Origin: Streptomyces cinnamoneus
Lineage (GTDB): Bacteria; Actinomycetota; Actinomycetes; Streptomycetales; Streptomycetaceae
NCBI RefSeq assembly: GCF_002939475.1
Contig: NZ_PKFQ01000001.1
Span: forward strand, 4,275,001-4,339,000
Length of the DNA: 64,000 bases
Direction: 5' to 3'
The notes beneath the pieces are model-generated. The model was given only the letters and a program-made list of their open reading frames with translations. It had not been told where the DNA came from and made no database searches. The position numbers and the translations under genes were made by a program. Below, piece by piece: positions 43,433 to 46,570 of this stretch (its first letter is position 1; each line of letters opens with the position of its first letter).

Positions 43433-43504
43433 CCCCCAGGGCCTCTCCACCGCCCATGCTGACACCTCCGGGGCGCCCGCGCAGTGTGGGGCACAATCGG
43501 CGGC

Positions 43505-44128
43505 ATGACGAGCGACCCGAAGGCAGCACCGGAATTCGCCGAGCGGTGCTACCGCTCCTCGGCAGGCATCGGCAGTGGTGTCCTGCTCCTCGCGCTGGCC
43601 GCGTGGCTGGGGGGCGACGCGATCGTGAGCGGCGAGGGCCGCACGCCCTGGCTCGCCCTGGCCGGCCTGCTCTTCGCGGTGCCGCTGATCATCGCCTTCA
43701 CGGTGCGGCCGGCGGTGTGGGCGGGGGAGGACCGGCTGCTGGTGCGCAACCCCTTCCGCACGATCACGGTGCCGTGGGCCTCCGTCGAGGCTGTCCGGGC
43801 CGGCTACTCCAGTGAGGTGCTGGCCGGCGGCGCGAAGTACCAGCTGTGGGCGATCCCCGTGTCCCTCCGCCAGCGCAAGCGGGCGGCGCGGTCGGCTGCG
43901 CGGGCCGCCGCGGAGGACGTGACGGGGACGGTGTCCTCGACGGCCCCTTCGCCGGGGCTGCTGCGGGCACCGTCCGACCAGGCGATCGAGGACCTCCGGG
44001 AACTCGCGGAACGGGGTGCGTCCCGGGAGGGTGCGCAGGGGGTGCCGACGGTGCGCTGGGCGTTCGAGCTGATCGTGCCGTCGCTGGTGGGCTTGGCGCT
44101 GCTGGCGGGGCTGGGGGGCCTGGCCTGA
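43505..44128 (+). CDS. PH-domain membrane protein (bPH2-like)
   Basis: 207 residues. Two hydrophobic spans (IGSGVLLLALAAWLGGDAIV and LALAGLLFAVPLIIAF) precede a bacterial PH fold: RPAVWAGEDRLLVRNPFRTI, TVPWASVEAVRAGYSSEVLA and KYQLWAIPVSLRQRKRAARS. A charged helix follows, then a last membrane span IVPSLVGLALLAGLGGLA. Typical small PH-domain proteins of actinobacteria, function unknown. ATG 43505. Divergent from deoC (108 bp between starts), convergent with the phosphosugar mutase across the long inverted repeat. Confidence 0.82.
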   Translation: MTSDPKAAPEFAERCYRSSAGIGSGVLLLALAAWLGGDAIVSGEGRTPWLALAGLLFAVPLIIAFTVRPAVWAGEDRLLVRNPFRTITVPWASVEAVRAGYSSEVLAGGAKYQLWAIPVSLRQRKRAARSAARAAAEDVTGTVSSTAPSPGLLRAPSDQAIEDLRELAERGASREGAQGVPTVRWAFELIVPSLVGLALLAGLGGLA

Positions 44129-44182
44129 CGGGCGGGGTGAGGTGGCCCACTCCCACCGGGCGGTAGTTGCCGCGCGGCGGGA

Positions 44183-44313
44183 GGGGGCGGGGTGGGACGG
44201 GGCCTGGCAGGGGGCGTAAAGCGCTCTTTGCGGGAGTGCGGGGCACGTATCGACACGTAACCAGGAACCGCAAAGAGCGCAGCCCCCAGAAGGCCCCGTC
44301 CCACCCCGCCCCC
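44183..44313. repeat. Long inverted repeat, copy A
   Basis: Outer 23-bp perfect arms (44183-44205 with 44291-44313), then GGGGGC/GCCCCC, then inner 13-bp arms GCGCTCTTTGCGG (44221-44233) and CCGCAAAGAGCGC (44268-44280) around a 34-nt centre. Shares the arms and blocks such as CAGGGGGCGTAAAGCG with copy B at 46268, in opposite orientation. Lies between the convergent PH-domain and mutase genes. Confidence 0.88.
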
Positions 44314-44439
44314 GCCCCACCGCGTGCCCGACACGCACGCACCGGGCACGTACCCGGCACACCCGCACCGGGGCACCTACGCGCACGCACGCACCGGCAC
44401 GCACGCGCACGCACGCACGTACCGGCACGCACCGCAGCG
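44314..44439. repeat. CACG-rich low-complexity tract
   Basis: About 125 bp dominated by GCACGCACG/CACCGGCAC units, running from the end of repeat copy A to the mutase stop. No coding signal on either strand that I would trust. Confidence 0.7.
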
Positions 44440-46125
44440 TCAGATGCCGGCCACCCGCGACAGGTCCGTCTTGATCGCCGCCAGCACCGCGTCCGCCCGC
44501 CCCCGCGCGTCCACCAGGCCCGCAGCGGAGCCCACCGGCACCACGACCTCCAGGTAGCACTTCAGCTTCGGCTCCGTGCCGCTGGGCCGCACGATCACCC
44601 GCGCCCCCGAAACCGCACCCGCCTCGTCGCCCGCCAGGGCGTACCGCAGGCCGTCCGTCGGCGGCAGCGACTCCGTCCCCTTCGCCAGGTCCTCCGCGGA
44701 CACCACGTGCAGCCCCGCCAGCGTGGTCGGCGGCTGCTCCCGCAGCCTCCGCATCGCCGCCGCGATCAGCGACAGGTCCTCCACCCGCACCGACAGCTGG
44801 TCCGTCGCGTGCAGGCCGTGCTCCACCGCCAGGTCGTCCAGGAGGTCGCTCAGCGTCTGTCCGGTCTCCTTCAGCTCGGCCGTCAGCTCTGCCACCAGCA
44901 GCGCCGCCGTGATGCCGTCCTTGTCGCGCACCCCGTCGGGGTCGACGCAGTACCCCAGCGCCTCCTCGTAGGCGTAGCGCAGGCCGTCCACCCGGGACAG
45001 CCACTTGAAGCCGGTCAGCGTCTCCTCGTACGAGGCGCCCGCCGCGGCCGCGGCGATCCGCGACAGCAGGGACGACGAGACGATCGTCGTGGCGAACGTC
45101 CCGCGCGCGCTCTTGTGCACGAGGTGCGTGGCGAGCAGGGCCCCGACCTCGTCGCCGCGCAGCATCCGCCAGCCCTCGACGGTCTCCGGAGCCGGCACGG
45201 CCACCGCGCAGCGGTCCGCGTCGGGGTCGTTGGCGATGATGATGTCGGGCGTCTCGCCGCGCGCGGCCGCCTCGCGGGCGGTGGCGAAGGCCAGGTCCAT
45301 CGCGCCCGGCTCCTCGGGGTTCGGGAACGCGACGGTCGGGAAGTCGGGGTCGGGCTCGGCCTGCGCGGCCACGACGTCCGGGGCGGGGAACCCGGCGCGG
45401 GCGAACGCGGCGGTCAGCACGTCGCGGCCGACGCCGTGCATCGGGGTGTAGACGGTGCGGACGTCGCGGGGGGAGCCGGCGGTCAGGACGGCGTCGGTGC
45501 GCTCCAGGTAGGCGCCGACGACGGCGTCCTCGCGGAGGGTCTCCCAGCCGGCGGAGGGCCGCGGCACGTCGTTCAGGCTGGCGACGGCGGCGATCTCGGC
45601 GGCGATCTCCGCGTCCGCGGGCGGCACGATCTGGGAGCCGTCGCCGAGGTAGACCTTGTAGCCGTTGTCGCGCGGCGGGTTGTGGCTGGCGGTGACCTCG
45701 ATGCCGGCGACGGCGCCGATGTGGCGGATCGCGAAGGCGAGGACGGGCGTGGGCAGCGGCTTGGGCAGCAGCGCGGCCTTCAGGCCGGCGCCGACCATGA
45801 CCGCGGCGGTGTCCAGGGCGAAGTCCGCGGACTTGTAGCGGGCGTCGTAGCCGATGACGACGGTCCCGCCGGTGTGGCCCTGCTTCTTGAGGTACGCGGC
45901 GAGGCCGGCGGCGGCGCGGATGACGACGGCGCGGTTCATGCGCATGGGGCCGGCGCCGAGTTCGCCGCGGAGGCCGGCGGTGCCGAACTGGAGGGTGCCG
46001 GCGAAGCGGTCGCCCAGCTCGGTGAGGTCGCCGGCGTCGATGAGCCGCGCGAGCTCGTCACGGGTTTCGGGGTCGGGGTCCTCGGCGAGCCAGGTCTGGG
46101 CCTGCGCGATGAGGTCTCGCTCCAC
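44440..46125 (-). CDS. Phospho-sugar mutase of PGM2 type, probable phosphopentomutase
   Basis: 561 residues, alpha-D-phosphohexomutase fold. Seen: LQFGTAGLRGELGAGPMRMN, the phosphoserine loop GIEVTASHNPPRDNGYKVY, the metal loop IIANDPDADRCAVAVP, the sugar loop GFKWLSRVDGLRYAYEEALG, and the phosphate-binding end VIVRPSGTEPKLKCYLEVV. The -N-P-P-R-D-N-G-Y-K-V-Y form and the length of 550-580 are those of the PGM2/phosphopentomutase subgroup rather than of PMM/PGM. It sits next to purine nucleoside phosphorylase and deoC, so conversion of (deoxy)ribose-1-phosphate to the 5-phosphate is the inferred role. GTG 46125 with GGAGGA five bases upstream. A 505-bp repeat-rich gap precedes it. Confidence 0.9.
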   Translation of the reverse strand: MERDLIAQAQTWLAEDPDPETRDELARLIDAGDLTELGDRFAGTLQFGTAGLRGELGAGPMRMNRAVVIRAAAGLAAYLKKQGHTGGTVVIGYDARYKSADFALDTAAVMVGAGLKAALLPKPLPTPVLAFAIRHIGAVAGIEVTASHNPPRDNGYKVYLGDGSQIVPPADAEIAAEIAAVASLNDVPRPSAGWETLREDAVVGAYLERTDAVLTAGSPRDVRTVYTPMHGVGRDVLTAAFARAGFPAPDVVAAQAEPDPDFPTVAFPNPEEPGAMDLAFATAREAAARGETPDIIIANDPDADRCAVAVPAPETVEGWRMLRGDEVGALLATHLVHKSARGTFATTIVSSSLLSRIAAAAAGASYEETLTGFKWLSRVDGLRYAYEEALGYCVDPDGVRDKDGITAALLVAELTAELKETGQTLSDLLDDLAVEHGLHATDQLSVRVEDLSLIAAAMRRLREQPPTTLAGLHVVSAEDLAKGTESLPPTDGLRYALAGDEAGAVSGARVIVRPSGTEPKLKCYLEVVVPVGSAAGLVDARGRADAVLAAIKTDLSRVAGI

Positions 46126-46139
46126 GGTGTTCCTCCGGG

Positions 46140-46267
46140 GTGTCGGGGGTCGCTTGGGGTGCGTGGTGGGGCCGTGGCCGTGGCCAGAGCGTGGCCAGAG
46201 CCGTGGCCGGGGCCGGGGCGGGGGCCAGAGCCGTGGCCGTGGCCAAGGCCAGGCCGTGGCGGGGGCC
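46140..46267. repeat. GTGGCCGTGGCC / GGCCAGAGC tandem low-complexity tract
   Basis: Imperfect repeats built from GTGGCC, GGCCAGAGCC and GGGGCCGGG units fill the space upstream of the mutase start. No gene is visible. Confidence 0.7.
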
Positions 46268-46397
46268 GGGGGCGGGGCGGGGTGGGCCCTTCTGGGGGCT
46301 GGGGTATGTGCGGCGCCCGCCAGGCGTAAAGCGTGCCCGGCGAGCGCCGCACATACCCCTTTACGCCCCCTGTCAGGGCCCACCCCGCCCCGCCCCC
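46268..46397. repeat. Long inverted repeat, copy B
   Basis: Outer 23-bp perfect arms (46268-46290 with 46375-46397), middle GGGGGC/GCCCCC, inner 16-bp perfect arms GGGGTATGTGCGGCGC (46301-46316) and its complement (46344-46359). Same family as copy A, inverted relative to it; shares GGGGCGGGGTGGG, CCTTCTGGGGGCTG and GGCGTAAAGCG blocks. Lies between the purine nucleoside phosphorylase and mutase genes. Confidence 0.88.
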
Positions 46398-46570
46398 TCC
46401 CGTCCGCTCGGCGGTGCGGGCCGTCTCGGGGGCCGGTTCGGGCCGGTCCGCTCGGCGGGCCGCCGTCCGCCTCGGGGGCCGGTCAGAGCCGGTTCGCTCG
46501 GCGGCTGCGGTCGCCTTCGGTCTGGTCCGGGCCGGGCCGCCTCGGGGTCCGGTCCGGACCAGCTGGTGGA
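46398..46570. repeat. Degenerate GC-rich tandem repeat
   Basis: Three or so imperfect units of roughly 50-60 bp, each with GCTCGGCGG, then CCTCGGGGGCCGGT and GGGCCGGTCC-like blocks. No coding potential recognised. Confidence 0.6.

Follow-up and report, generated by a model that had tools for sequence, protein, structure and literature searches.

The window, that is, the whole stretch of 64,000 nucleotides of Streptomyces cinnamoneus DNA analyzed here, carries a sugar phosphate mutase gene that is bracketed by two copies, A and B, of a long hairpin repeat in opposite orientation. The positions of both elements, their parts and the neighboring genes are given in Table 1.

Architecture of the two hairpins and their core

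Both copies (A, 44183-44313; B, 46268-46397) fold with outer arms of 23 bp, in agreement with the original prediction. The RNA fold of copy A has a free energy of -114.8 kcal/mol (z = -11.9) and that of copy B -134.6 kcal/mol (z = -12.9); compared with dinucleotide shuffles (n = 200 each), neither fold was matched in stability by a single shuffle. The strings AGGGGGCGTAAAG and CAGCCCCCAGAAGG, said to be common to the two copies, each occur exactly twice in the window without mismatch, on the plus strand in copy A and on the minus strand in copy B. A third assignment had to be corrected: GGCGTAAAGCG on the plus strand of copy B (about 46325-46335) belongs to the tip of B, and the counterpart of copy A's motif lies on the minus strand at about 46359-46371. 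Inner arms of 13-16 bp had been proposed for both copies; copy A does have such arms (13 bp), but copy B forms a perfect 25-bp stem. The proposed G5C block is present, as a 6-bp stem with a conserved, asymmetric internal loop on either side. Read 5' to 3' on the plus strand for copy A and on the minus strand for copy B, the common design starts with GRCGGGA, the 23-bp outer stem and a loop UG[GA]CA opposite AGA, and continues with the stem GGGGGC/GCCCCC, a loop GUAAA opposite A, the inner stem and a variable tip. The tip of copy B also contains CTTTACGCC, which over 9 nt is perfectly complementary to the GGCGTAAAG loop strand of the same copy (46326-46334 versus 46359-46371, minus strand); no tip complement of this type was seen in copy A, and the one in B is possibly due to chance.

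Table 1. Positions of copies A and B, their parts and the enclosed gene
Feature	Position	Strand	Remarks
Copy A, whole element with 7-nt 5' flank GGCGGGA	44176..44313	+	144 bits, best match in the genome to model R1
Copy A, site			Convergent junction, gene 43484-44128 (+) versus mutase gene (-)
Copy A, outer stem 5' arm, 23 bp	44183..44205	+	Fold
Copy A, internal loop 1, 5' side GGCA	44206..44209	+	Fold; conserved in six aligned copies of this genome
Copy A, middle stem GGGGGC	44210..44215	+	Fold; covarying helix 1
Copy A, internal loop 2 GTAAA, single A opposite	44216..44220	+	Fold
Copy A, inner stem 5' arm, 13 bp	44221..44233	+	Fold; covarying helix 2
Copy A, inner stem 3' arm	44268..44280	+	Fold
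Copy A, middle stem 3' arm GCCCCC	44282..44287	+	Fold
Copy A, outer stem 3' arm	44291..44313	+	Fold
Mutase gene between the copies, 561 aa	44440..46125	-	Outside the element
Copy B, whole element with 7-nt 5' flank GACGGGA	46268..46404	-	133 bits
Copy B, site		-	Purine nucleoside phosphorylase (PNP) gene upstream, mutase gene downstream, all on -
Copy B, outer stem 3' arm	46268..46290	-	Fold
Copy B, inner hairpin, perfect 25-bp stem, 9-nt tip	46301..46359	-	Fold
Copy B, internal loop 2 GTAAA	46360..46364	-	Fold
Copy B, middle stem GGGGGC	46365..46370	-	Fold
Copy B, outer stem 5' arm, 23 bp	46375..46397	-	Fold

The core of the hairpin covaries. Across 46 diverse cores, 95.3% of the pair cells are paired and 9 of the 20 pairs have changed on both sides; when the partner was slid by 1-3 bases as a control, pairing fell to 37-45%. 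The GT of internal loop 2 is invariant in the 46 members, and two pairs of the inner stem are kept as G-U in 41 of them and are A-C in none. The variable outer stem has 128 G-U/U-G pairs and 34 A-C/C-A mismatches, a ratio favored by having folded the sense strand. The ends of the outer stem differ in sequence between members and species and nevertheless stay paired, and a second subfamily (S. narbonensis type), read from the sequences, carries a 3x3 GGA/GGA loop in this stem. Covariation together with the retained G-U pairs points to selection on a single-stranded fold, be it RNA or DNA. With its conserved internal loops and covarying core, the element indeed has more structure than a terminator needs, as had been remarked at the outset.

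In several species, among them S. cinnamoneus, S. klenkii, S. lilacinus and S. eurocidicus, a different hairpin of ~30 nt (TGGGGGCACCCCCAGCGGTAGCTGGGGGA-like) takes the place of a few bases of the GUAAA loop, always at the same point (loci L094, L095, L096, L130, L145, L170, L179, L214 and L230). It looks as if one repeat had entered another.

Distribution of the family and spread within genomes

An exact 11-base motif was found at six places in the genome, all of them hairpins of the common design and none a long, autonomous version, whereas the reversed motif gave no match; a second motif added further copies. A covariance model (R1) built from six copies of this genome detected 15 copies, all long hairpins and all within 0.99-5.7 Mb of the 6.46-Mb main contig. 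The original prediction had suggested a search for further copies and had considered that A and B might be a local duplication only; the 15 copies speak against the latter, as does the core identity of A and B of 70%, which marks them as diverged members and not as a recent duplication.

A pattern scan of GTDB contigs yielded at least 108 stretches, nearly all from Streptomyces among the matches listed. Many of these are former Streptoverticillium species (S. cinnamoneus, S. griseocarneus, S. klenkii, S. triculaminicus, S. hiroshimensis and S. olivoverticillatus); S. goshikiensis, S. virginiae, S. exfoliatus and S. gardneri are listed as well. Using a covariance model of the core (R2), the family was detected in 21 of 150 sampled Streptomyces genomes, with 1 to at least 28 copies each, counts that are lower bounds, up to 30 candidates per genome having been scored. 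No match was obtained in roughly 138 non-Streptomyces actinobacterial genomes, and a class-wide sample of 148 genomes gave matches in the present genome and one other Streptomyces only, with a model that was trained on known members and that more diverged relatives may escape. In this sampling the family is thus restricted to Streptomyces. Plasmid and phage records contained no match at blastn sensitivity. Neither words nor sequence strings retrieved a description from the open-licence full-text literature, and the repeat family is apparently undescribed so far.

The copies found are central in the chromosome, from 997918 to 5692020 in the present genome and from 1.395 to 6.98 Mb of 8.7 Mb in genome G086; the outer ~0.8-1.7 Mb at either chromosome end of these two genomes are devoid of copies found. 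Several draft contigs have one of their ends no more than about 100 bases from a copy (G018 C4, G042 C53 and C59, G097 C63, G131 C92, L170 and L195). The hairpins therefore probably break assemblies, a practical hazard, and copy counts from drafts are probably too low.

Copies spread or convert within a genome. The core of copy A is 99% identical to that of a copy at 5.047 Mb, 728 kb away, but only 74% identical to the element at the same junction of the compared S. cinnamoneus, and the 5.047-Mb copy is 73% identical to its own counterpart there. Such a pattern at sites that are also filled in the sister species indicates recent copying or gene conversion. The family is patchily distributed, and in some genomes (G086, G296) bursts of near-identical copies were observed. 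In these two genomes (loci L297-L333), most copies are preceded on their 5' side, over a distance of up to ~400 nt, by a strand-polar mosaic built from other intergenic repeats of Streptomyces (CCTCAAACGCCGG..., TGGGGCTCCGCCCCAGACCC and CCTACCCGCCCTTCC); a CTCAA motif occurs in plus orientation on the left (64) and in minus orientation on the right (11), never the reverse.

Candidate movers were considered. An IS200/RAYT transposase was rejected: the Y1 transposase domain PF01797 is absent from five element-bearing genomes (G000, G018, G060, G086 and G296), while the same search found it in 5 of 14 control genomes. A MITE moved by a DDE transposase, one of the possibilities originally raised, would explain inverted-repeat ends, intergenic position and high copy number. 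Over 178 copies, however, the match between left and right flank equals that of the permuted control (3.41 versus 3.42), so that the suggested check for target-site duplications revealed none; moreover, the end sequences differ between species with pairing kept. We consider this origin very improbable.

Gene context and conservation at the same junctions

After collapsing orthologous junctions, 86 sites remained, of which 38 are convergent, 41 tandem and 7 divergent. All adjacent gene pairs in the loci listed by the pattern scan served as background (97 convergent, 343 tandem and 110 divergent). Convergent sites are enriched about 2.5-fold and divergent sites are depleted by a similar factor; the elements thus prefer gene 3' ends and avoid divergent junctions, as REP/BIME sequences do. 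A stable GC hairpin at a gene end is also what intrinsic terminators offer, and no T-run was found 3' of the hairpin. In 108 of 152 cases the element lies closer to a gene with its 3' side than with its 5' side, genes having been called by a simple codon-usage script that makes individual distances approximate. An apparent sense-strand bias in early, uncollapsed counts (19:7 and 29:14), which shared sites had inflated, disappeared at the site level, where 18 tandem sites are sense and 23 antisense.

These data bear on a structured regulatory RNA, either an attenuator or a protein-binding 3'UTR element, acting on one transcript strand. The strong covariation of the core argues for it, as do the conserved G-U pairs, whose counterparts on the opposite strand would be A-C, and the excess of G-U pairs in the outer stem. 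However, single-stranded DNA hairpins tolerate G-T as well and the counts profit from the choice of strand, the tandem sites are without strand preference, and Rfam contained no family above the gathering score (below threshold, only microRNA models and one snoRNA model appeared). Flanking genes have no common functional theme, which together with the lack of strand bias makes a gene-specific attenuator unlikely. The structural-RNA role originally envisaged is possible, given the covariation of the core and its G-U pairs, kept on one strand; as an explanation of the family, the regulatory RNA is improbable.

Nineteen sites are common to at least two species. Orientation is uniform at 16 of them, and copies in both orientations occur at the other three, two of which include adjacent inverted pairs. 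A first set (14 of 14) had indicated that orientation is conserved at every shared site; the larger set reduces this to mostly. The PNP-mutase site of copy B is filled in the present genome and at least nine other species, in one orientation throughout. Site A is filled in the present genome, S. cinnamoneus, S. olivoverticillatus and S. griseocarneus, and both sites are also filled in S. cinnamoneus and S. olivoverticillatus. The bracketing of the mutase gene hence arises because two conserved sites happen to adjoin one gene. Between the present genome and the compared S. cinnamoneus the intergenic flanks are essentially unalignable, and the element stands out as an island of similarity. Indirect empty-site evidence comes from relatives devoid of the element: at site A and two further junctions these often, not always, carry a strong hairpin of simple form, and in G004 and G015 a CCTCAAACGCCGG-type intergenic repeat occupies the PNP-mutase junction.

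With their inverted orientation and 2-kb spacing on either side of a single gene, the two copies might also act as an inversion device on the mutase gene, as was originally proposed. Yet PNP and mutase keep their order and orientation in most of the relatives examined, whether these carry the element or not, the copies differ in their cores, and a similar spacing is found around other genes (4.731/4.733 Mb), so we give this idea almost no credence. The latter pair (4730857-4733207, L105), about 2.2 kb apart around two divergent genes, resembles the arrangement around the mutase gene.

A purely selfish repeat deserves more weight. Its hairpin would be copied as single-stranded DNA by a putative transposase-like enzyme, with gene ends as the sites of least harm. 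Patchy distribution, near-identical bursts, within-genome homogenization and the lack of strand bias relative to genes are consistent with such a repeat, as is the conserved strand asymmetry, known from REP/IS200-type hairpins. However, the same junctions are kept across species with stems intact while flanks diverge, ordinary hairpins often fill the same slots in relatives, and neither a Y1 transposase in the five genomes nor a target-site duplication was found. We therefore regard a purely selfish origin as possible, though rather unlikely.

Relation to known repeats and a possible role at transcript ends

The closest known systems are the REP/BIME sequences of enterobacteria and pseudomonads, likewise many-copy extragenic palindromes between genes that avoid divergent promoters, are homogenized within genomes and sometimes form adjacent inverted pairs. 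Close inverted pairs, a feature of BIME mosaics, were seen in G039, G042, G097 and S. cinnamoneus (L088); the pair in the window is spaced 2 kb instead. REP units are 20-40 nt long, whereas the family described here measures about 140 nt and has two conserved internal loops with a 6-bp GC stem. It differs further in lacking a GTAG-type 5' motif, with GRCGGGA as the 5' flank of most copies in the present genome, in lacking a RAYT (Y1) transposase in the five element-bearing genomes and in its restriction to Streptomyces in this sampling. ERIC (IRU) and NEMIS are of similar length and form one long imperfect hairpin in transcribed intergenic DNA. To our knowledge they have no sequence relation to the present family, which differs by the missing target-site duplication and by outer stems that vary between members yet stay paired. 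CCTCAAACGCCGG-type Streptomyces intergenic repeats are also dispersed hairpins, but have another sequence and are absent from the window. The I-shaped (U-tract-less) terminators of GC-rich bacteria share the stable GC-rich hairpin at gene ends without a T-run, and the family sits in slots where relatives often have simple hairpins; in contrast to I-shaped terminators it is much longer, forms one family of many copies, and has conserved loops and a covarying core, and termination is in its case a supposition. In S. griseus, Term-seq detected hairpin ends without a U-tract, interpreted as I-shaped terminators (PMC8914203), and for S. coelicolor stable stem-loop RNA species in 3' UTRs were reported (PMC4681348).

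Of the interpretations originally offered, that of a structured, dispersed repeat of the REP type is supported, more copies being present both in this genome and elsewhere in Streptomyces; MITE, local duplication and inversion are not supported. On balance, we lean towards the view that A and B are members of a Streptomyces-restricted family of dispersed, REP/BIME-like extragenic palindromes of about 130-140 bp that probably act as bidirectional transcript-end hairpins. Dispersal, core covariation, gene-end location, the occupation of the same junctions across species and recent copying or conversion inside a genome are its directly supported parts. Each element is one long hairpin with a conserved, strand-asymmetric core, its two internal loops lying around a short GC stem. 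Most likely, the hairpin would work in both directions as a transcription terminator and/or as a 3'-end barrier to exonucleases, given that it is near-palindromic and enriched at convergent ends, where relatives often have ordinary hairpins. The conserved core may be bound by a factor of the cell, which possibly also copies or mobilizes the element.

Termination would account for the location, the near-palindromy and the other hairpins in the same slots, but not for the conserved core, since a plain terminator needs neither conserved internal loops nor G-U pairs. A selfish repeat would account for the bursts and the loops, but not easily for the fact that the stems at old sites are intact. The two ideas may apply together, as with REP sequences. 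Against termination count the tandem position of about half of the sites, the missing T-run, the three multi-species sites with both orientations and the lack of a strong hairpin at the compared junctions in some relatives; the gene-end location would equally follow from neutral insertion avoiding promoters.

More speculatively, the family might constitute a new class of portable bidirectional terminators, whose two-loop core would be recognized by a putative Streptomyces factor; this factor would copy the hairpin within a genome without an IS200/RAYT-type enzyme and overwrite older copies at fixed gene-end slots. We hold this for a tentative proposal; if true, it would mean concerted evolution of transcript ends. 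With this family, an industrially important genus gains an apparently undescribed repeat, whose covarying core suggests a binding partner. The family provides a collection of naturally replicated and replaced hairpins at transcript ends for testing termination, mRNA stability and the spread of repeats.
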